Positions 5,179 through 51,300 of a DNA stretch of 64,000 nt are shown here, piece by piece (the stretch's first letter is position 1; each line of letters opens with the position of its first letter). This DNA is from Sipunculus nudus (lineage: Eukaryota > Annelida > Sipuncula > Golfingiida > Sipunculidae). Both the position numbers and the translations under genes were made by a program. The stretch covers positions 53,608,370 to 53,672,369 of the forward strand of contig CM049307.1 in the NCBI GenBank assembly GCA_026874595.1, read 5' to 3'. The notes under the pieces were generated by a model that ran no database searches, was not told the DNA's origin, and was given only the letters and a program-made list of their open reading frames with translations.

Positions 5179-8100
5179 GTCAGTCTGATATTTATTTATT
5201 TATATACAGTGGAACCCCGCCTTGCGACCATCCCACAATTGTGACCACCATACAATTACGATCACTCTGCTTGGTCCCAAATTTTTTTTAGTTTATATAT
5301 GTTTATAAATGACTCAATATTCTGACCAACCCCGAATTCTGAATTACGACCAGATTTCTTGGCCCCAGTGCTAATGCAACTCCACTTAAGCGACCACCAC
5401 CAACTAGTACTGAAACAGTATTTATCATGAGTCAATGGCTGCGCCTTATCACAGGCGCCTTAATGAAAGATCAAAGCGGGTAACAAGATTTCTCAACCTG
5501 AATGTTAATCTGGTTCCGCATATCTTCCTGACTGGTTGTGGCGTAGCTTATAGTTCAAAGAGGGTAACCATCGGCCTGATTACTTAATGAGCTGGTCTGC
5601 CCTGGGGTTTTTGGCTAGCGATACTAATTGCCCCTCAGTGATCACCTATATTACAGCTACCCTAAGTGCGGGGATGAGGGCTTAATATTTCAACCAATCA
5701 CATATTGTTTGATCCTCATTGGTCAAATTAAAGAACTAGTTAATCCTAAATATGTTCATACCTTACTCATACTGAGTATTGAGCAGTCAGTTAAATGTAT
5801 AAATAAAGCTTGCATGAGGGCAAATCCCACACATTGTCTTGCCTTTTCTGATAGATCACTGTCAGTTTATTTCACCACTGGTTCAGTTTGCATTTAAATT
5901 GCTTACTGTTGTGCGACATGCCTCTGAAAGAGCTCTCCTTAAAGGAGAAAGTGGCGTTAATCAAGGCGGCGACACCAAGACGCAGTCAGCACCAACCGGC
6001 TCAGCAGTTAAGCATTGGTAAAACTCAAGTGCACGCAATATATACTCAAGCAGAAGGCTAAATATATGACAGCCATATTTTTTGTTCAATATGTATTCAG
6101 TAGGTTGTCTTCATATAGCCTCTAGTGCAATTATGTGTAATCATCAGTCACTACGTATGTGTACATGTATATTATTTTATCATGAATAAATATATAAAAT
6201 AATTTTTATGCCCCCGCCACAAAGTGGCCGGGGCATATAGTTTTACCCATGTCCGTCATTCCGAAATCAAACAGTTGTACGGACTTTTTTCGCAATGCCT
6301 GCAGATATTGGCCTAATTTTTGGTGTGTGGGCAGATATAGACCAGTTACAGATCGAGTTCGCGTTTCGTCCCGGTTGACCTACTTTTGACCGTTTTACGG
6401 CTCCTAAACTTAGAAAATTTCATAAAAAATAGAAAAATCAATGACAGATACACATGTACGGACTTTTTTTCGCAATGCCTGCAGATATTGGCCTGATTTT
6501 TGGTGTGTGAGCAGATATAGACCAGTTACAGATCGAGTTCGCGTTTCGTCCTGGTTGACCTACTTTGGACCGTTTTACGGCTCCTGAACATAGAAAATTT
6601 CATGAAAAATATGAAATTTCATGACAAATACACATGTACGGACTTTTTTTTGCAGTGCCTGCAGATATTGGCCTGATTTTTGGTGTGTGGACAGATATAG
6701 ACCAGTTACAGATCGAGTTCGCGTTTCGTCTCGGTTGACCTACTTTTGACTGTTTTACAGCTCCTAAACTTAGAAAATTTAATGAAAAATAGAAATATTC
6801 ATGACAGATACACATGTACGGATTTTTTTTCGCAATGCCTGCAGATATTGGCCTGATTTTTGGTGTGTGGACAGATATAGACCAGTTACAGATAGAGTTC
6901 GCGTTTCCTCCCGGTTGACCTACTTTTGACCGTTGTACAAACATAGAAAATTTCATGAAAAATATGAAATATCATGACAAATACACATGTACGGACTTTT
7001 TTTGGCAGTGCCTGCAGATATTGGCCTGATTTTTGGTGTGTGGCCAGATATTGACCAGTTACAGATTGAGTTTGCATTTCGTCCTGGTTGACCTACTTTT
7101 GACTGTTTTACGGCTCCTGAACATAGAAAATTTCATGTAAAATATAAATTTTCATGACAAATACACTTGTACAGACTTTTCTTCTTAATACCTGCAGATA
7201 TTGGCCTGATTTTTGGTGTGTGGGCAGATAATGACCAGTTACAGATCAAGTTCACGTTTTGTCCCAGTTGACCTATTTTTGACCATTTGACTGCTCCTGA
7301 ACCTAGAAAGTTTCATGAAAAATATAAATTTTCATAACAAATGCATATGTACTGACTTTTTTTCCTCAATGCCTGCAGATACCACCCTGATTTTTTATGT
7401 GTGGGCAGATAATGACAGTTACAGATCGAGTTCGCGTTTCATCCCGGTTGACCTACTTTTGATTGTTTTACGGCTCCTAAACAAAGAAAATTTCATGAAA
7501 GACAGAAATTTTTATGGAAAATGCACATGTATGGACTTTTTTCACAGTGCCTGCATATACTGGCATGATTTTTGGTGTGTTGCTTGATAATGACCCGTTA
7601 CAGATCGAGTTTGCATTTTGCCCTTGTTGACCTACTTTTGACCATACGACACCTCCTGAACTTAAAAAAAATTTCAAAATTTAACAAATGTTTCTAATTT
7701 GCCCAAGGCGGGGGCATTCGTGTCGTTCCGACACATCTAGTCTTTTCTTTTTATTTACACCCAAAATAATTCAAAGTAAAATATTTTGTTATAATTCACA
7801 TAAAAAATATGCTATTTAATACACATTAAACATCAGCATGTTATATGCGACTAAGGTAAGAGTTTCACAAATACGACCTACCCCAAATTAAGACCACTTT
7901 GCTCAGTCCCTAGGGTGGTTGTAATTGTGGGGTTCTGCTGTATTTATTAAGTACAATAATTTGAACAGGATAACTCATTTAGAATGTTTTGTTTTTCAGT
8001 AAGGTCCTGCTACAATTTAAAACATAAAGTACAATAAAAAAGATTGACACGTTGAAGTAGTTAACATATTAGACGAACTAGTTGTATTCTCACATGATTA

Positions 8101-11100
8101 TTTGAAATGATTTTGTAGGCCAGCAGAGTTTGTTCTGGTTATGGTGCTTGAAGGTGCCCATTCATCTACCTTTGTAAAAGAATTTATTCGTTTTCTGGCT
8201 TCCTCTGTGTATATATTAATGATCTAAGGGTAATTCTGGGTATGAAAAGTTCTTATAAGGCCTCTGTGAAGGATGTAGGAATTGTTTATCAACAACATGT
8301 TTGTAAACATAGCAATGTTGACAAATGGGAAAAACATGTAACCTAAGGTTGTAGGTAACTGTAGGTTGCATATATGCAGAGGTAGTAAGGGCACTTGTTG
8401 CAAAATGCCATTTGCAAAGCTCTGGTTTATCTGACGTTATGCTCTTGTAAGGGCCCTGCTTGACAAGCGGTGCCCTATAGTGATCACCATGTCAGTCCGT
8501 CATTCTGTCCGTCCGTCCTTCCGTACTTCTGTCCTTCCAATGACTCAACAACAACATTCTGCAGCTTTCCCAAATTCACAGGGATGATTGGTACCTATGA
8601 GGGCTCCAGACCTATGGAATTACAGACTTGTCAAAATTCCAATATGGCCGCCACAGCCCAATCGCTGATTTTTTTTTCGCCTGCAATAACTCAACAACAA
8701 CATACTGCAGCTTTCTCAAATTCACCGGGATGATTGGTACCTATGAGGGCTCCAGACCTATGGAATTACAGACTTGTCAAAATTCCAATATGGCCGCCAC
8801 AGCCCCAATGCTGACTTTCTTTTGTGCGCGTTACTCAACAACAACATACTTCAACTTTTCCAAATTCACAGAGATGATAGGTACCTATAAGGGCTCCATC
8901 TCGATTTTCTTTTGCGCAATAACTCAACAACAACATACTGCAGCTTTCCCAAATTCACAGGGATGATTGGTACCTATTAGCGCTACAGACCTATTGAATA
9001 ACACACCTGTCGGAATTCCAATATGGCTGCCACAGCCCTATTGCTGATATTATGCACCTATTAATTTGCACACAATAACTCAAAAACAACATACTTCAGC
9101 TTTCCCATATTCACAGGGATGATTTGTACATATTAGGGCTCCACACCTATTGAATTACAGACCTGTCCAAATTCCAGTATGGCCACCACAGCCCAATTGC
9201 TGATTTTCTTTTGTGCATGATAACTCATTACAACATACTTCAGCTTTCCCAAATTCACAGGGATGATTGGTATATATGAGGGCTCCACACCTATTGAATT
9301 ACAGACCTGTCCAAATTCCAATATGGCCACTACAGCCCCATTGCTGATTTTCTTTTGCACCCAATATCTCAACAAGAACATGCTTGATCTTTCTCAAATT
9401 CACAGGGATCATTGGTGCCTATATGGGGGCTTCTGACCCAGATTGAAATACAGACTTGCTCAAAATCAAATATGGGTAACAGAGTACAATCGATGTTTTT
9501 CCTATTGCCCACATTATTTCAGACGTATCTTCTTTAATATTACTTGAACAAGTAGGATTTTTTCCCTCATGCATATGGATAAAAACCTAATTCTGTTTTT
9601 TATATTTTTCAACTTGAACCTAAACTTTTCACCCATATGTAAACTCGTCCAGCACTACAAGAAATGGGGGCCCTCTGAGGACCATTGTCTGACCACATCT
9701 AGTTGAATTTGTTTTGATACTGCACTTGTTAATAGCTTACCACAACAGAGTTCAGATGAGCTTTTGTTAAAGTAAGCTATAGGTACTTGCCAACTTTGAG
9801 TATTTATATGAACAAAGGGAAACCTGCTTTATGTCATGCCAGGATATGCCAAAGTGTTTCAGTTCAGGTCATTTCACGTTGACACAGTGATGTTCCCTTG
9901 CATGTAGATTGATATTAACTCTTTTTATTATTAAGTATACCATATGCAGTAATACAAGACACATACCAGAAAGAAAAACCAGATCAATGGATTTCAAACT
10001 AAATAATAACCACCAAGGCAAGATTAAATATAAGAACAGTATATTCTCCATTTTTAGCTGCTCATCCATATAATGCCTAGCTCACATATACACTGGACAG
10101 CCTACGTTTTTTCAACCTGGCTGCTTGCCGTTGGTTTTCAAGAATGTACTGTCTCTGTGTGATTTTTCATCCCATGTTGTTTGCACTCACATAATCTATG
10201 GCTACCATACGGTGACCTCTGAAACTTGGTTTGTAAGGGGGCCATCCAGGAACCGTAAGGTGACCATGCAGGTTCAATGCATGAAGCAAGGGCACCCTAC
10301 GTTGCCCAGCTGGTGACTTGCAGGTGCCCAGCCGATGATTGCTGGCACCGTGTGGCCACCATAAGGGTTTTTCATGCTTCATATATAGATGATTTAAACA
10401 ATCATTTGTTCAACATGAAGCCAAAGAATAAGAAAGGGAAAGAAAAGTAATGGTCAAGTTGAGGAGGAGACATCAAGCTGCAAAGATGTGGATGAGACGG
10501 AAAGAAAGTGAAACAGGATCTTATCAAGGAATTTCTAAAATTCTTGATGGGCATCCTTGCTTCAACACCAAGAATAGAGTGAAGATGAACAGACAATAAT
10601 GTGATTTGATGAATGTATATTTTTTTCTCCTAAATTCGGGTTTGGTGTTTTTTTTTACTGTTTGAAATATATGCCACTGTGGCTGTATTTATATATCTGA
10701 CAGTTCAGATTCAGGGCACTGTGAGGACACTGCAAGGGCAAAATTTACATCACACGAGAGCTGTGCGGACCCGGAACAGCAACCATTCAGCTTTTCACAA
10801 ATAGCACAGGCCCTCACAGGGACTGTAAGGCTATGTGCCCGTATGGCAACTGCTGACACCAGCCTGTATGAATATTGCTGAGAAAATTACCTGGAAAAAG
10901 GGAGAATCTTGCGGGCCAAAAAATATTGCCAAAAATGCTGTTTTATTTACTGTTAGGTGCCTTAGGCTATATGTGATAGCAGCATAAAGCTGCACTCAGA
11001 CATTTGTACCAATAGTATAACCCATGTATTATTACCAGATAGGTCAGTATGTACTTGTATACAATATTAATTCACATTTCTCCATTTGTCTAGATGATCC

Positions 11101-16200: not shown

Positions 16201-17040
16201 ATTATCTGTCATGCTTGACTCTGTGGGAGCCAGACTGTTATATGGATGTGAACTACCACTGTAGGCCCTTTTGTTATATGCTAGTGATGAAACCAGGTTA
16301 TTTAGTTGCTGCTTTGTATATAAAAGATACCCTTAAAGTACCACAAAATACACAATTTTCCAATTCCAGAATTCTTATGAAACATTATGGGACTTAGGCA
16401 GAGGTGTGCTACAGTGGAGGAAAGTGACCTCTGGTGGCACTTGCTCTGATTCAGTTTGTCTGCTGGATAAAACCTTGTGCTCATTGGATACTTATTCAGT
16501 CTCATTAATATTCATGGTGTAATTAGGCATTGTAGTTTAATTTAGGAAAACCCAAGGGTAGTCTACCATTGTTAATTTGTATTATAGTGTGTATAAAACA
16601 AATTATTTGTACAGTAAGGAATCTTTAATTTTATCTTTTCAAAAGAGAATATGTGTTTGATGATGTGAGATTATGAATTATGTGATATGGATAGCTTAAT
16701 ATAATTAATTTGTAGTCGTTATCAGTGAAATTGCCTTTTGTTTCACTTAGTTTGTGCTAAAGGGTCAAAACCAAAAGAGTGTTAATGGATGGGTTCATAG
16801 TAATTAGGGAGTTTTCTAACTATTCTTGGTGATCCATTTATGGTTCTTGTTCTGGTTTATTTGAGATCCTTTAGTCACTGATTCGTCATTTCGAGCTTCT
16901 TGGCTGTCACTTGACTAATATGCTCTGGGTTTTCCGTTTACTTTGGAACCCTTTGTCTTTGTAAACCCATGGCCACTTTCAGGAATGTTTTCTTTGTGTC
17001 TTATTCAGCATTTGATCTCTTCGTGAGTCTCTTGGTAAAG
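13270..17040. other. 3' UTR of SPSB3-like gene and intergenic DNA
   Basis: The first part is presumably 3' UTR. The rest is AT-rich DNA with no recognised gene. Reading frames in 13659-13907 and 16152-16397 have no domain features and no splice-supported extension. Confidence 0.5.
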
Positions 17041-17836
17041 GCCTTTATCACGATGGGTGTCCCTTTGCAAAGGCCTTGATCATGACGGGTGTCCCTTGGT
17101 AAAGGCCTTGATCATGACAGGTGTCCCTTTGTAAAGGTCTCGATCACAACGGCTGTCCCTGGGTAAAGTCCTTGATCATGACAGGTGTCCCTTGGTCAGT
17201 GCCTTGATCATGACGGGTGTCCCTTTGTCAACACCTAGGTCATGAATGGTGTCCCTTTGTAAATGCCTTTATCATGACGGGTGTCCCTTGGTAAATGCCT
17301 TGATCATGAAGGGTGTCCCTTTGTCAACACCTTGGTCATGACAGGTGTCCCTTTGTAAAGGTCTTGATCATGACAGGTGTCCCTTGGTAAATGCCTTGAT
17401 CATGACGGGTGTCCCTATGTCAACACCTCGGTCATGACGGGTGTCCCTTGGTAAATGCGTTGATCACGACGGGTGTCCCTTGGTAAATGCCTTGATCACG
17501 ACGGGTGTCCCTTTGTTAAGGCCTTGATCACGACAGGTGTCTATTGGTAAAGGCCTTGATTATGACGGGTGCCCAGTCAGGGCCTTAATCATGACGGGTG
17601 TCCCTTTTTTAAGGCCTTGATCATGATGGTTGTCCCTTTGTAAAGGTCTTGATCATGACGGTTGTCCCTTTGTCAAGGTCTTGATCATGACGGGTGTCCC
17701 TTTGAAAAGGTCTTGATCATGACGGGTGTCCCTTTGTAAAGGCCTTGATTATGGCGGGTGTCTCTTGGTAATCCTTAATCATGACGGGTGTCCATTAGTA
17801 AAGGCCTTGATTATGACGGGTGTCCGTTGGTAATCC
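17041..17836. repeat. Minisatellite, 25 copies of a 32-bp unit
   Basis: Head-to-tail copies of a 32-bp unit whose consensus starts GCCTTGATCATGACGGGTGT and continues CCCTTGGTAAAG. I counted 25 copies; three are 29-31 bp long. Units 5-13 show a higher-order pattern: the variant junction GTCAACACCTNGGTCATGA recurs every third unit (after units 6, 9 and 12), that is every 96 bp. Each unit carries the palindromic TGATCA/TCATGA overlap. Degenerate traces of the unit extend to about 16990 on the left and 18230 on the right. Confidence 0.95.
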
Positions 17837-36368: not shown

Positions 36369-39300
36369 CTAAAATAATAAAAATGAGCCGAAATTAACAA
36401 TAAATGTATTTTTGAATATGATTATGTTTTGGTAATATTACTTCGAAAGATTACATAATGACACATGTATAGGCCTATAACATAATGATGTAGTAGTGCC
36501 TATATTGATCCAATGTGTTTTAAAGAAAATGTCATTTAGCAGTGTATGTGAACCGATCTATATATTAAATTCATGTTCTATCTTAATTCTATCTTAAATG
36601 TTCATCTAACCAAAATAAGTTTGGTAGACCTAAATTAATGTCTACTATTAACGGCTACAACATATATGGAGATTCTTACAAATGGAGCGTGAAATTAATA
36701 TTGGACTTATACATGCTTTAGAAATCTGACGTGTCGGCAGTTAACGTTTTATATCATATGTCTTCTACTTTGCGGGAGTTACATGTCAGCAGCCAAGTAC
36801 ACAAAAGCGCCTGACACAATGCAATGAGGTGCCACTCATTTACAGATATCCGCCCATATACAACGCCGCCTTGCAGCACTTGATTCCATAAAAAATACTA
36901 CAAACTGTGCATAATATTGTTAACCAGACAAAATAACCACGAAATCTAATAGAAAAAAAAACAGATTTGCTTTATTTACCAATTTAAGTTACTTTAATTA
37001 CAACCGGCTTGTCTGAAACTCTTCCGCTTCCTGTGATAATATTAAAATTTCAATAGCTATACCGGTCATGTGATCATCACCATCCGAGAGTCTTCGCATG
37101 TTCTTTGCCCTCAGTATATGGATTCTAAGTTTTTCCGAGTTCTGCGTGTAGGTCAAAGAGAACTGTAGCTGGCCCAAATCAGACCCCTGGAAAATGGAGA
37201 AAAGTGAAAAATATATGTATTTCTTACAAAAGAAAAATTGTCTGGTTCGGTGTAAATTACATGGAAAATATAATGCGTTGCAATACGGGTTTGAAAAAAT
37301 ATCACATTGCAAAATCTGCGGATTTCGGGAACCTTTAACGTTTGAACTGTACCGTGAGTTATCTTAATTCTCACTTAAGTTATACTGTGCTCCTACCTAC
37401 CAGTTTCCTAAATTACAAGATGGCAAACTTGACAATACCTTTGTATAAATATTAGTATATTTATTTGAATTATGAAAGCAAAAAGAATCTGTTAATTTAA
37501 CAAAGCATATAGAGAGAAAAAATGTGAATTTTTTTTTAGTTTAATATTAATGACAGGATATCTCGTTACTAGTACCTATGAAACTGGCCGCGAGATGGCA
37601 GAAAAAAATATTGAGATGCCTTCTGTTAGGCCCATCAGAGCTTTCAGCCAGGGTTTTTATTCGTTACATTAATTGGTTTTCCTTATAGAAACAAACATTT
37701 TTATTTTTTTTTTTTAATTATCACGAACGTCCTGTCATCTACTACATACCTTTCCTCCTGAAACAGAGGTCGTTTTAAAATTGTAAATTTTCCCACCTGT
37801 CTTCCTCCTTCCGTCAGGTCTCTCCACAATGTTTCACTTGATGAAAGGTCCACCTCCGACAGCGGTACAAGGGCGTGGCCCAGGCAGTGACGCACGCGTC
37901 TCTTGTCTACGTCATAAACAGACAGACGCAGAGTGCGTTTTGCCACCTCCGTTTCTTCCACCTGTGACACCAAGTAGATTTAATGATAATAGAAATAATG
38001 ATTTGATGATATGTTAATCAGAACGAATAATGTCTGTCCAATATATTAAAATTGTCCTAATGAAACATTTTACCTTTCCATTTTTTGGCGTTAGATTATA
38101 TATATATATATTCCATTTTTTTTTTCATAATTTTAGCCTGCTGTTGTTGAGGGTGTTTCTAGAATGTAAGCTTCCTGGCAAATCGGAGAACTTTCATAGG
38201 CCCTGTAATCCGAAGTTCTGAACCAACCATTCCTCCGTAAAATATTTAATAGAATATGCATAACGGGATAAAATGTGTCGTTCCTATATCCCGTGAGTGC
38301 ATGGATGCGTTTCCGGTTCCGACATTTGCTATAGATCTTGGTTTTGCGTTTGTGGCCAAAAAAAGTATCAACCGAACAATTAATTAAGGATCACCCAAGC
38401 TTTAAATTCCCTTATTAATTCCAAGAACGACTGATATATGAAAATTGACACCAACAGCTAAGCAATGGATATCTTAAGCGACATGGTTACTTGCGTGTAT
38501 GTAGGCCAAATGTTATGCCCTAATTATAACCAACAGTAAATAAAAGCATGATTAAAACTACAGTAATGTGCTTTTCACGATTGTTCGTATTTTGCAATTA
38601 TCTTTATAACTGTAGTAAACCCTGTCTCATATTACCCAGAATCCTGATACAAAGTACATACACTGAAAATAAAATTTTCGTTGAATTTTGGCGAATTGTT
38701 TTTGCGGCAAACCCTCGACTCATGTGACGTCTTTTCATCCGGCAGCAGGAATACTTTCACAAACGGGTCCCTGGTGGTGCTTGTACGGTCACGCGCTGAA
38801 AATACCAATAAATTGATGATAGAAATAAATGGAAATTTGCATGCAAAGCTGTGCAATGGGATATACATAAGGTTTAATGCTTCCATGATAACATGCTTGG
38901 CCATTATTTGAAAAGTACTTGATTACTATTCAAGTACATGTGTGACATATACATGTACAATGCAAGTACTAAATAGTTTGGACCCGAATAAAAGCACCAA
39001 TTACACAAACGTCTCTCCTGAAATAATGACATGGATGGACTCACACAAATCATTTAAGGTGGCACTAACAGTCTTGTGTATGAGAAAGCCCTTGAAGATG
39101 TATGGACATGCAAAATTTCCGGCAGATATTTCAATCATAATGGGGTTTGTGCACAGATGCATGAAACCCAAAAACAATTAGAGGTGCTGCCACAAGTCTT
39201 ATATACAACTAAATTATTCGAGATGAATAATTATGCACAATTTCAGGCTGATAAATCAAATCCCTCCTGAAAAATAAGCAGTGACATAGACTGTTCAAAA

Positions 39301-41225
39301 AATATTGTGGTTGGCGCCACCAGTCTTGTATATGACAAAGCTATCCGAGATGTATAGACATGCACAATTTCAGGCTGATATATTTAATCCCTCAAGAAAA
39401 ATAAACAGGGACATACACTTTGCAAAAATCATTGTAGGTGGCAATACCAGTCTTGCGTATGAGAAAGCCATCAAAGATGGACAGGCTGATACATCTAGCT
39501 TCTCAGTCAGGTGCACTGGGATGACCAAGCTCAACTGAAGAAGGAAGTTGCACTTGAACCCAAATGAACCGAAACTAATTTGCAGGTGCAGTTGGACTCT
39601 TGACCTGTACCTGGCTGCACTGACTGAACACTAGCTTGACCTGTTGCCTTAACTGAAACAGTTGGAAGGCTGCCAAAGTTATTTATAGATACAGACAAAA
39701 TCTTGGCCTGTTGCAAAATTTGTTAACACAAACTAAAAGACTTTGGCTACAATGTTCTTTTCATGCTGACATATTCATTAGATTTTTTTTATCAAAAATA
39801 TTTAGAATAGTCCCAGGTGCGTTAAAAAAAGCAATATCAGAATACAAATATATTTTATGCATGGATTAAGCTTACACATAAGTTGGATATGGACACGAAT
39901 TATTTATGTTGCCTGTCCAGCTCTGCTGATATACCTAAAGAGCTCAGTCTGCTACCACAAAAAAATCATTAAAAACATTTTAAGTAAAGAAGCTGAAAGG
40001 GGGCTAAAATAACGAGGTTTTTGCCCGTTAAAAAAAACAGGTTGATGTAGGTGGCGCCACAAAAACCTCAATGTCAAAAATGAGTCATGAGACCAACATT
40101 TGCACAAATTTTGGTGATGCTAGCTCCTGTCGTTCTGAGATTGTTATGTTAGTATGCTTACTTGGCCAGATGCTTTAGTTTAAATTCCTGTAATTGGGCT
40201 AAAATTCATGAAACCCAAATCATTTGGACAATATTGAGAGAGCTAATCTCTGGGACCATTATTGTAAAATATTGAACGATTCGGCTGAAAGATTTCGGAG
40301 AAGAAGATTTTAAAAGTTTTTTTAGCTTTTCCCCGTAAAATGTACGTTGATGCAGGTGGTGCCATAAAAAGCTCAATTCCACATCAGTTGACATGGGACA
40401 GATTTTGCATAAAATTTAGGGATGCTAGCTTCTGCTGTTCCTAAGAAATTATGGGTTAATGTACTGATAACCCCGTACAAAAATGTCGATGCAGGTGGCG
40501 CCGCCAATACCTCAATTTCAAATAGGACTCATGTGACCAACATTTGCATAAATTTGGTGATGATAGCTCAAGCCATTTCTAAGATTGTAATTTTAGTAAC
40601 CTTTTTTGTCCAATTCACCGAAAAGCCAAAAATCACCGACATAAAACCATTCGAACAAACTTAAGAAAGATTGTTTCTGGGATTACTTCTGTGAAATATT
40701 GAAGAATTTGGCTGAACAGTTTCGGAGAAGAAGTTGCTTTTTAGCTTTTCCCAGTAAAACCTAAGCCAATGCAGATTACCAAAAAATTAAAAAGGTCTAG
40801 AGTTTGCATTTGACTGATTATTCCATAAAATTTTGCGCTGCTAGCTCTGCCGGTTTTTGAGATAGCATGGGTGAACGTAAGGACGACGGCAGACGGACGA
40901 CGCTGCGCCATCACATAAGCTCACGGGTTCGCTAAAACAACACTTCAGAATTAATAATGTAATGCTAATGAGCGGGAGTACAATTCGGTCCAGGCAAACT
41001 GGATGCGAACATATTTTTGTTTTCTGCAAATACGAATAAAGCATGTTTAATAAATACATTTCTTTATTAGTTCACGTGGTTGTCCAATGAGATATGGCAC
41101 TGCCATTGGGAGGGCTAACCATTAAAGGCCAACCATTAAAACTTATCTAACGGTACATGAAAACAAAATCTACAAGCCAGTAGGGAATTTAGTGTTTTAT
41201 AATATTTATGTGATAACAATTATAC

Positions 41226-48300: not shown

Positions 48301-51300
48301 TATTTGGGTAATCACATAAAATTTCATTCATTCATTTATTGTTAATCTATAGAGAATTCAAACACATGCAAACAAATGTATGAAAGGAAAGAACATCAAA
48401 GCGCTGAGAATTGTCAAAATGCATATCATTATATATCCGTAAGTGATGTTGTGCCGGCATATTAGCCGCTTGTTTAGTTTATGTGAGGAGCAGGGCGTGA
48501 TTGTGAAAATAAAAGATGGGTTATCTCAGTTCGTAATTACGACACAGAACTCGAGTTGTTCAGCATGACACCTGGCAACACGTGAGCTCCATAGAGACAC
48601 GTGACCCAAGACCTTCGGGGAGGACTGAAGTGCCGACGACAGACTTGTTTGTGCTGTCAAGGTGGCTGGCTCCATTGACCGCAATAAACACTATAATTGT
48701 TCAATATGAATGTATCTGTTACCATTTTATCAGCACAGGAAGACATGACGGCGAGCTGGCTACTTGCTAACATGGCCATTGATGGCTCACGATCGACTTA
48801 TAATTTTATTCAAAATACAGGGGCGGATCCAGCATTTAGGAAAAAAAAAGGGGGGGGGGGGGGGGGTCCAACGCAGGCGGACTAACGAAAACCCTAAAAA
48901 AAAGGTCCAAGGTCCGGTAAAGGGGGGTCCAGCCCGAAAATTTTGTCTGAAACCCTTAAAAAAGGTTGCTTTGGATAAAAAGGGTGGGGGGGGGGGGGGG
49001 GGGATTTTCAGGATCCGCTTCTGAAATAACCTAATTGTTATCCACCAATGGGCTCTCGTTTCTTTAATTTGTGGCCACTTACTTTGGCGATTATTGCGTC
49101 AATCTGTTACATTAAATTAGTCTGGGATATAATAACACGCCCCATAACTCAGAGAATATAGGTTGAAGTGACCTAATTTCTTGTGTCCAGGGAGAATTTT
49201 CAAGAACCGCCCTGGATTTCAGGTGAGTAGATTCTAGGTGCAACAGTCAAGTTTTGTGCCCTGTCTGACCGTCTGGTGCTTAATATCATGTTTTGGCCCG
49301 TAGCTCGCATACATAGGTAACCATGAACCAATTTCAGGTTTCCATGGAGATTTGCCAATTACTTTCAGGATTTTACGTTAGAAGTTATAAGGGCTAGCGG
49401 ATACAATTTGTGCCCATCTCACTTTGAGGGTGCTCAAAATCATGTTTTTGGCAAGTAGTTCGCAGAATATAGGTCGCCATGACCTAATCTCAGGTTTCCA
49501 CGGAGATTTATCCAGGACCTCCCTGAATGTTATTTCAGAAGATTCTAGGCTAAATGGACACAATTTATGCCCCGTCTGACCCACTGAGTGCTCAAAATCT
49601 AATTTCAAGTTTCCATGGAGATATGCCTAGGACCATCCTAGGTGTACATATTGATAAAAGTCTCTAGGTCTAACGGTTACGGTTTGTGCCCTGTTAACGG
49701 CCGTACTGCTTGATCTGAAGGTCTCAAAAACAGAGAATAAATGTGTTAAAAATAGAATAAAATACGGATGGCACCACCATTCTTCAGGAACTGATGAAAC
49801 ACTCCATGATCAATATGCATGGAAAGGATCTTTGCTATCAATGCATTATTTATTCAGATACTGGAGCTTTTGTATCAAATTTTTATTGATTCTGGGGGTA
49901 CTTACGAGCCCCATAGCTTGGAGGATATGGGTCGCAGTGACCTAATTTCATGGGTTCAGGGAGATTTTTTATGGACCTCTATGGTTTCTCAGTAAGAAGT
50001 TTCTAGGCCCAGTGGTTACGTTTTGTGTCCTGTTTACGGACGACCGGACGGACGACGGACCATCAGTGATTGCAATAGCTCATATGACTTTCAGTCAGCT
50101 GGGCTAATAAATAGAATACGGGTAGTCGAAAAGCGACTACGTGTATCCACAAAAATCAGAGTGGAACGGGTGAAGTGAGGTGGGATTGAATGGAAAGGGG
50201 AAATATAGTGAGGTGTGTTGCATATTAGCATGGATGTCTGCTGCCGAAATGTGTATGTAGATTAGGCCACCTATTACAGAATCCAGAAACTCCAAGAAGT
50301 ATAAACACGCATAATTTTAGGCAAATAAGTCACACCACTACTGAGATATGAGTGATTTTAGCCCACGGCAGACAAACAGACGGTCGCTATGCAAAAATGG
50401 TTGCAGGTGGTCTCTCCAATTTTGTGTATGATAAAGAGCTATTTGAGATCTATAAACATGCAAAATTTTGGCCCAATCGGTCGAACGGTTCCAGATATAG
50501 AGCTTGGATGTCTGCAGCGAAAACTAGAATGTAGGTGGCGCCACCTGTCATAAAATCAAGAAAGCTGTCCAGGATGTACAAACCTGCAAAATATTAGGCA
50601 GATATGTCAAACCATCGCCGAGATATGAGTGATTATATCCCACCGCAGACAAACAGTCGGAAGCTGTGCAAAAATGGTTGCAGGTCGCGCCACCAGTTTT
50701 GCGTATAATAAAGAGCTATGTGAGATCTATACACATCCAAAATTTTGGCCCAATCGGTCAAGCGGTTCCCGAGATATGAGTTTGGATGTCGTAGCGTAAA
50801 CTCGAATGTAGGTAGCGCCACCTGTCATAAAATCAAGTAAGTCTTCCAGGATGTATACGCATGCCGAATTTCAGATGAATTAGTCAAACCACTGCGGAGA
50901 TATGAGTGATTTTAACCCCAAGCAGACGAACAGATGGACACTGAACTAACAAGTTTGCAGGTGGCGCCACCATTTTTTGTGTATGTTATAAAGCTATCCA
51001 AGGGCTACATTTGTACAAAATTTTCTCCTGATCGGTCAAACGGTTCCCGAGATATGTGGATTTATGTGTGGAAACAGACGCACAAATGGACGCTGGGCAG
51101 AGAGGAAAGGTCAGAGGTCAACACCAATTGGTTAGGCACCAGTTCACATGTGACAGGATAATTGGTGTAAGTTTCGGAAAAATCAGTCCAGTAGTCTCAG
51201 AGGAGTTCTCCGGAACCCGGTCAAAAACACAGTATCTGCAAAACTTTGTTTTGGCGGATACGATTGTAGGTTTATTTATATGATATATATTTTCTTGTAT

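Follow-up and report, generated by a model that had tools for sequence, protein, structure and literature searches.

Unrelated tandem arrays with a common TCTAG|T terminus: probable HINE-type rolling-circle families in Sipunculus nudus

Introduction

Two tandem arrays with unrelated monomers lie close together in the window (the whole 64,000-nucleotide stretch of Sipunculus nudus DNA analysed here), and both terminate in ACATCTAG|T. What does such a common ending say about how the arrays came to be there? A first-pass annotation read it as the work of one Helitron-type machinery that inserts at A|T, mobilises different tandem cores and seeds new arrays at many sites. Comparable elements are known from oysters: the Cg_HINE class of Crassostrea gigas is already published (Vojvoda Zeljko 2020, PMC7492417), and the sections of that paper drawn on here leave open both the origin of double-array HINEs and the autonomous mover of Cg_HINEs. 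The consulted part of a second oyster study (Penaloza 2021, PMC7992393) likewise leaves open whether elements that combine CTAG ends with subTIRs stand as intermediates between Helitrons and Helentrons. In the sections of Thomas 2014 (PMC4067079) used here, the sole mention of CTAG concerns a Phytophthora proto-Helentron that inserts at A|T.

Results and discussion

Architecture of the two elements

The arrays belong to two elements, here called A and B, with the following features.

6203-6207, plus strand: T-run adjoining the 5′ end of element A (T's of the target, of the element or of both)
6208-7740, plus strand: element A, whole copy, read directly from the sequence
6208-6218, plus strand: 5′ subTIR of A, ATGCCCCCGCC, complementary to 7707-7717
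6224-6236, plus strand: 5′ inverted repeat of A, pairing with the subTIR as a hairpin (DNA fold -13.1 kcal/mol, z -5.1)
6250-6264, plus strand: degenerate GTCC-type microsatellite of A, longer in other copies
6276-7643, plus strand: core of A, a 180-bp tandem array of 7.7 copies (TRF)
7707-7717, plus strand: 3′ subTIR of A, GGCGGGGGCAT, read directly from the sequence
7720-7734, plus strand: 3′ palindrome of A, GTGTCG-TTC-CGACAC (DNA fold z -3.2)
7735-7740, plus strand: 3′ terminus of A, ATCTAG, then T (genome end counts)
about 8449-9702, plus strand: element B, its exact start inferred
8449-8476, plus strand: 5′ end of B, subTIR-like AAGGGCCC plus hairpin (DNA fold z -2.5)
8493-8538, plus strand: GTCC-type microsatellite of B (TRF rows of period 8 and 16)
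8538-9416, plus strand: core of B, a 144-146-bp tandem array (TRF)
9666-9702, plus strand: 3′ module of B, GGGGGCCCTCT to CCACATCTAG, then T (genome end count)

Element A begins at 6208, directly past the T-run, and shows two HINE hallmarks: subTIRs identical over 11 bp or more (11/11 between 6208-6218 and 7707-7717) and a palindrome near the 3′ end, the perfect 6-bp hairpin that had been described directly before the terminus and that folding bears out. Element B terminates in CCACATCTAG (to 9702), the next base being T. Its window copy has a subTIR match of 7 bp only (AGGGCCC), short of the 11 bp of HINEs, and its 3′ end has no hairpin comparable to A's (DNA fold z +0.85); a weak stem, GGGCC/GGACC with a single mismatch, lies 19 nt from the end. 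Comparison of A with B returned no match at E 1e-5, confirming that unrelated monomers carry the common terminus, and an Rfam search of 5800-10200 returned no match.

Genome-wide boundaries and copies

Both ends proved to be true family boundaries. The hairpin end of A plus T has 2796 exact matches in the genome, against 21 with a base other than T in next position and 0 for the reversed control, and the end of B has 1257 matches within 2 mismatches (reversed control 0). The 3′ part of the B module is conserved in 3 further copies, each followed by TT, so that TT follows the end in 4/4 B copies read, although the search pattern already demanded the first T.

We sampled 20 of the 2796 A copies, all within the first 5.8 Mb of C1. 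The 5′ module was recognised in 16, and in four (L013, L023, L027 and L028) no 5′ end lay inside the stretch examined. The A monomer was the best-scoring array in 17 of the 20, and the remaining three carry A sequence at their 3′ ends: L013 and L015 have best array rows of 280 and 277 bp plus a 180- or 181-bp row, and L023 has no array row. The hairpin end is therefore specific to the A family, contrary to the suggestion that it is common to different cores. Between 15 copies and the window, the 3′ monomers of the array are conserved by position (L013, L015, L023, L027, L028 and monomer gaps outside 120-210 bp were left aside), indicating that arrays travel as part of whole elements. Window A was taken from one base late in this comparison, as in the array, composite and joined-flank analyses.

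These data bear on a rival view, in which the arrays are common satellite DNA dispersed through recombination or circular DNA, and ACATCTAG is shared by coincidence. Monomers of 145-180 bp are satellite-like and short motifs do recur by chance (the window contains 5 instances of CATCTAGT, counting both strands, only two of them at the ends of the A and B arrays), but the same boundary recurs at over a thousand places for each family, empty sites exist for A (see below) and the 3′ monomers keep their positions between copies. We regard this explanation as scarcely credible, plain satellite spread being rejected on the boundary counts together with the positional conservation. The proposed seeding of new arrays survives in a narrower form, in which whole elements carry their arrays and insertion into a monomer makes a composite array. 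In this way, short satellite-like arrays can be carried to thousands of sites and keep exact ends.

Insertion sites

All 16 scored 5′ ends of A have 4 to 8 T ahead of ATG, and the base preceding this T-run is A in 8 copies, C in 5 and G in 3. Joined-flank queries (n=20) yielded good spanning paralogs, representing empty sites, for six A copies (L010, L012, L018, L019, L021 and L026). Each is a T-tract (T|T), and apart from 0 to 3 extra T (in most cases two) nothing is duplicated. A seventh spanning match, for L014, was weak at 64%, and 13 queries, window A and window B included, had no spanning paralog; among the 18 joined loci, two (L013 and L027) had a loose 5′ match, and window B was cut three bases late. 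The sampled A copies are thus shown to insert in T-tracts without duplication beyond the T's, the T|T insertion without TSD that is typical of HINEs.

The A|T insertion that had been supposed would instead make these canonical Helitron1 elements, which have a 5′ TC, a 3′ CTRR and A|T targets. The CTAG of A fits CTRR, its hairpin stands 6 nt upstream of the end, A precedes the T-run in half of the scored copies, and oyster elements with CTAG ends are reported to have A|T targets (Penaloza 2021, PMC7992393, in the part consulted). However, the 5′ end of A reads T(n)ATGCCCC rather than TC, subTIRs are present, C or G precedes the T-run in the other 8/16, and the autonomous protein described below bears endonuclease and OTU domains. 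Empty sites at T-tracts, six for A and one for element D, contradict A|T insertion for both, and a canonical Helitron1 identity is very improbable.

The terminus shared across families

Terminal similarity extends well beyond the two loci, to thousands of ends, and TCTAG|T also closes most copies of two further elements, C and D, as well as an autonomous Helentron, H. The terminus common across families is TCTAG|T only, not the hairpin end. In a scan of 262,440 bases, a hairpin preceded CTAGT at 33 of 257 sites, 21 of them with the A terminus; the remaining 12 include a variant A end in L023 and D ends in L011, L013, L015 and L024. Eight control 5-mers had hairpin rates of 1.8-5.8% (seven below 4.7%), and since the rate for non-A CTAGT (12/257 = 4.7%) falls within this range, there is no clear excess of hairpin plus CTAGT outside A.

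Element D and an autonomous Helentron

One copy of D lies in the window.

50111-51261, minus strand: element D, HINE-type, with 277-bp monomers; this copy ends in CTAT (TRF, end comparison)

Ends of D read CTAG|T in 5/8 examined. The element combines a subTIR (13 bp in L011, with two mismatches in the window copy), a 3′ palindrome (DNA fold z -4.6) and T|T insertion, the one empty site, for a copy other than the window's, being a T-tract with no duplication beyond the T's; all three are HINE traits.

Helentron H encodes Helitron_like_N, OTU, PIF1 and Exo_endo_phos domains in a single 2250-aa open frame and is bounded by 11-bp subTIRs 20.8 kb apart. It is the one element delimited here with a Rep-helicase-endonuclease fusion between subTIR ends, as expected of an autonomous Helentron. 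Its ends have 16 exact genome matches to a pattern that contains CTAG|T, and a Rep match lies 8.8-11.1 kb inside five of these 16, always antisense, where about 0.01 would be expected by calculation. An arrangement with the open frame in the same direction as the ends was rejected, the ends lying on the other strand. Both elements that insert at T|T and a Rep-helicase-endonuclease Helentron bear CTAG|T ends, so CTAG alone is no mark of a canonical Helitron. A search for a Rep/helicase between the same ends had been proposed: the protein found lies in an element that ends in CTAG|T, but the subTIR of H differs from A's. Among the elements found, none that is autonomous carries the subTIR of A or B.

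Our data argue strongly that A and B are two non-autonomous Helentron-type (HINE-type) rolling-circle families that differ in subterminal repeats, 3′ end and tandem core and have only their last bases in common. Of the idea of one Helitron-type machinery with different cores, the part that holds is that HINE-type elements of the Helitron superfamily disperse different cores; a single machinery for A and B is not supported, as their subTIRs and 3′ palindromes differ and H has yet another subTIR. The chances seem evenly balanced that TCTAG|T is a terminator of general use, or arose by convergence, and that A, B, C and D are moved by different Helentrons rather than one. SubTIRs and palindromes are unlike among A, B, D and H, and Rep matches number at least 143 and vary in score (150 of 195 candidates scored), which favours different movers, whereas the ACATCTAG common to A and B exceeds the common core.

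For HINE-type families such as A and B, a Rep-helicase-endonuclease would start at the 5′ subTIR module and stop at the 3′ palindrome plus CTAG, so that everything between both ends would be copied into a T-tract; array length would then change in the 5′ part. A HINE could land inside the array of another because monomers contain T-tracts, and the composite would spread with the outer ends. More tentatively, CTAG|T could be the common stop signal of a whole Helentron clade here, with monomer T-tracts as landing sites, nested insertions repeatedly making multi-array elements that spread with their outer ends, and arrays growing in their 5′ part; we lean somewhat against a generalisation of this breadth.

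Comparison with known elements

As far as the consulted sections describe them, Cg_HINEs resemble the present elements in their subTIR, inverted repeat, GTCC-type microsatellite, 140-180-bp tandem core, 3′ subTIR and palindrome, in T-rich insertion without TSD, in having families with unrelated cores and, for some, in double arrays; here, in addition, we could delimit an autonomous Helentron, which is not the partner of A (PMC7492417). HINEs and Helentrons in the parts of Thomas 2014 (PMC4067079) used here share 11-bp subTIRs, a 3′ palindrome, TT insertion, a variable number of terminal T's, the endonuclease fusion and, in one Drosophila element, an antisense ORF, whereas element A is dominated by tandem arrays. 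Helitron-like elements of C. gigas, as covered in the portion of PMC7992393 consulted, likewise have a 3′ CTAG, a palindrome and, in 257/751, subTIRs, but they are reported with TC at the 5′ end and with A|T targets in 86%, while A and D insert at T|T and A lacks the 5′ TC. Pearl elements (CvA and relatives) have a like architecture, according to second-hand descriptions only.

Nested arrays

In 7/20 sampled A copies, a monomer of A is broken at a T-tract by element C, at an identical point in the six composites with both C ends read. One border consists of a T-tract, a HINE-type 5′ hairpin and a microsatellite, and the other reads CTAG|TTT in 6/7. The C ends themselves show CTAG|T in the same proportion (five TCTAG, and CCTAG in L021), L020 reading CTGG; no 3′ subTIR of C was recognised. 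All seven A(C) copies, together with the plain copy L025, fall on one side of a 100/98 tree branch, in a bootstrap that had not settled.

This pattern suggests that the A(C) lineage is a nested insertion of C into A that later spread. The composite could also have formed without C transposing into A, by elements recombining with one another or by capturing a satellite junction; both have been proposed for oyster double-array HINEs (PMC7492417, consulted in part), and C was found solely inside A copies in the sequence examined. Yet the HINE-type borders of C, with T-tract and CTAG|TTT, and its single site in the A monomer make such an origin unlikely. With nested insertion followed by spread as the preferred reading, the A(C) lineage bears on the origin of double-array HINEs as a case for that route: likened by description to Cg_HINEs (PMC7492417, same sections), the double array here looks like a HINE nested in a monomer T-tract.

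Two unrelated arrays with a common terminus

Both arrays in the window (G000:C2:53608370-53672369) lie within elements whose ends are clear. Element A starts at 6208, where it follows a T-run, and stops at 7740; reading of the sequence confirmed the perfect 6-bp hairpin that the first-pass annotation had placed just before its terminus, followed by ATCTAG and then T. For element B the span is about 8449 to 9702; its last bases are CCACATCTAG, again with T as the next base. A and B gave no match to each other at E 1e-5. The observation that unrelated arrays share their terminal bases and the T that follows holds.

6276-7643: 180-bp tandem array, inside element A
within 8538-9416: 144-146-bp repeats, inside element B

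The 5' subterminal inverted repeat (subTIR) of A, ATGCCCCCGCC, is followed by the inverted repeat of this subTIR and a short GTCC-type microsatellite, while its 3' end consists, in order, of GGCGGGGGCAT (complementary to the 5' subTIR at 11/11 bases), the palindrome, and ATCTAG. Folded as single-stranded DNA, the hairpins score z -5.1 (5') and -3.2 (3'). This anatomy fits non-autonomous Helentrons (HINEs) as described in the accessible text of Thomas 2014 (PMC4067079) and Vojvoda Zeljko 2020 (PMC7492417); tandem-array HINEs have been published from oysters (accessible portions of PMC7492417, PMC8268682, PMC11136912). In the window copy of B, a 5' hairpin (z -2.5) and the microsatellite are present; because its matching subTIR bases number only 7 and its 3' palindrome is weak (z +0.85), we describe B as HINE-like rather than as an established HINE.

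Both ends recur more than chance would predict across the 1.43 Gb searched. Exact matches to the A end, GTGTCG-N3-CGACACATCTAG-T, number 2796 (reversed control, 0), and a further 21 ends have another next base, so that T follows in 2796/2817. On the 5' side, 4 to 8 T directly precede ATG in all 16 scored A ends of the sample, and the 5' module with a non-T base before ATG has 69 genome matches. The B end has 1257 matches with up to 2 mismatches (control, 0), and three additional B copies have the same 3' part with TT next.

Fixed 3' tails and probable change in the 5' part of the array

The suggestion that different cores lie behind the common hairpin end was contradicted by comparing, as the first-pass annotation had proposed, the sequence upstream of it in 20 A copies. 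The A monomer formed the best tandem array in 17 of these, and A sequence stood at the 3' end of the other three (best row a 280-bp array in L013, a 277-bp array in L015 and no array in L023); the hairpin end thus belongs to one monomer.

When the A monomers of 15 copies plus the window were numbered from the 3' end, between-copy identity was 0.89 for the last, 0.88 for the second-last and 0.84 for the third-last (105, 45 and 66 pairs). Neighbours inside one copy were 0.75, 0.75 and 0.80 alike at the 3' end (10, 10 and 12 pairs) and 0.91, 0.90 and 0.88 alike at the 5' end (16, 15 and 13); first monomers compared between copies reached 0.92, about level with those 5' neighbours. Since 3' monomers resemble their counterparts across copies and 5' monomers resemble their neighbours, the last two monomers are a fixed tail (the third less clearly) and the array alters in its 5' part; the arrays therefore travel with the element.

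A probable composite lineage

In 7/20 A copies (L011, L015, L016, L017, L020, L021, L026) the array is broken by a second module, C, which opens, after a T-tract, with a 5' hairpin resembling those of HINEs and a GTCC microsatellite; C of L026 holds two diverged repeats, 75% identical. Its position in the A monomer is identical in the six copies with both C ends read (in L015 C is split by other sequence, and just the 3' junction was read). In a tree built from the final 300 bases, a branch (100/98) separates the seven composites and L025, which is plain, from the 13 other plain rows, though the bootstrap of this tree is not settled. The plainest reading is a single insertion of C at the monomer's T-tract, after which the composite spread via the A ends; either a loss of C or an earlier split would account for L025. 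For double-array HINEs, the accessible text of Vojvoda Zeljko 2020 (PMC7492417) names recombination, junction capture and insertion as origins without deciding among them, and the composite favours insertion. Word searches of the open literature, as far as its text was accessible, found no report of a nested-insertion composite HINE lineage.

Other elements with the terminus

Outside A, the plain count of hairpin plus CTAGT falls in the range of control 5-mers, so the case rests on the family ends of C, D and the autonomous Helentron H. C, located solely within A copies in the examined sequence, ends in CTAG|TTT in 6/7 copies (five TTCTAG, and TCCTAG in L021) and in CTGG in L020. D has 277-280 bp monomers, and its eight 3' ends in examined sequence read CTAG|T in five, CTGG|T in one (L026), TTAG|T in one (the c3 Helentron locus) and CTAT|T in one (window, 50111). 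The H 3' end reads TTCCGGCAAGC-GTT-CAACC-TCA-GGTTG-TCTAG.

Several further features were seen in the window. At 50040-50105 (- strand) the D 3' end is directly followed by another module resembling a HINE 5' end (AGCCCAGCTGACTG..., leading into a GTCC-type microsatellite), and at 2116-2143 the hairpin AGGACCC-AAC-GGGTCCT precedes CATTTT CTAG|T, with no array seen alongside. The palindrome GGTGGCGCCACC lies within repeats at 39170-39479 and 50222-51056, and also in C and the c3 Helentron locus. At 17027-17833 a 32-bp unit is repeated in tandem about 25 times.

Insertion sites

For 20 elements, made up of 18 loci together with window A and window B, the two flanks were joined and compared with the examined sequence. 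Seven had a spanning match, that of L014 being weak (64%); 13, including window A and window B, had none there. The other six empty sites (L010, L012, L018, L019, L021, L026) are T-tracts, and the filled sites differ by 0 to 3 additional T (two in most cases); nothing else is duplicated. L018, L019 and L021 are inserted in other tandem arrays, whose remaining monomers act as the empty sites. Likewise, a D copy within one Helentron locus is missing at the homologous place in another, the filled site having two extra T. The A|T insertion proposed in the first-pass annotation was thus not borne out: insertion is T|T in the usable A sites and one D site, the target described for Helentrons. CTAG ends have been published in C. 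gigas, where the accessible text of PMC7992393 reports A|T targets and terms the elements possible intermediates, whereas A and D here show T|T.

L018 and L019, two A copies separated by about 10 kb, occupy the same position in an array whose repeats are spaced about 76 bp; their flanks are near-identical and their lengths differ, through duplication or two insertions.

A Helentron with a TCTAG end

Helitron_like_N has at least 143 genome matches, versus 0 in 14 control genomes. One locus on C8 carries a 2250-aa open frame with DUF6570, OTU, Rep, PIF1-helicase and Exo_endo_phos, the domain make-up of a Helentron. The H ends lie on the strand opposite to this frame:

C8:80149626, opposite to ORF: H 5' end (subTIR GCTTGCCGGAA, inverted repeat, GTCTGTTT microsatellite)
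C8:80128783, opposite to ORF: H 3' end (matching 11-bp subTIR, palindrome, TCTAG)

An antisense ORF has been reported for one Drosophila Helentron (accessible text of PMC4067079). Exact genome matches to the H 3' end number 16 (control, 0). At five of them a Rep match, antisense in every case, lies 8.8-11.1 kb inside; the other 11 lack one within range. By our own arithmetic about 0.01 such linkages are expected by chance against the 5/16 observed, a rough figure because Rep matches cluster. The first-pass annotation had proposed a search for a Rep/helicase protein between the common ends; the H frame does lie within an element that ends in TCTAG, but the H subTIR differs from those of A, B and D. 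H loci also have their own tandem arrays (319-331 bp). Word searches of the open literature, within its accessible text, found no genome combining CTAG-ended, T|T-inserting HINEs with a delimited CTAG-ended Helentron.

Just before B, window 8147-8435 is 75-77% like the sequence upstream of the Helentron ORF at both Helentron loci. The C8 copy of H appears to lie within the microsatellite belonging to a different H copy. A similar arrangement occurs at L054 (C3:43356650-43356999), a further H 3' end reading TCTAG then CCTGTC, which adjoins the microsatellite situated towards the 5' side of the second Helentron locus; possibly, H elements favour one another's microsatellites.
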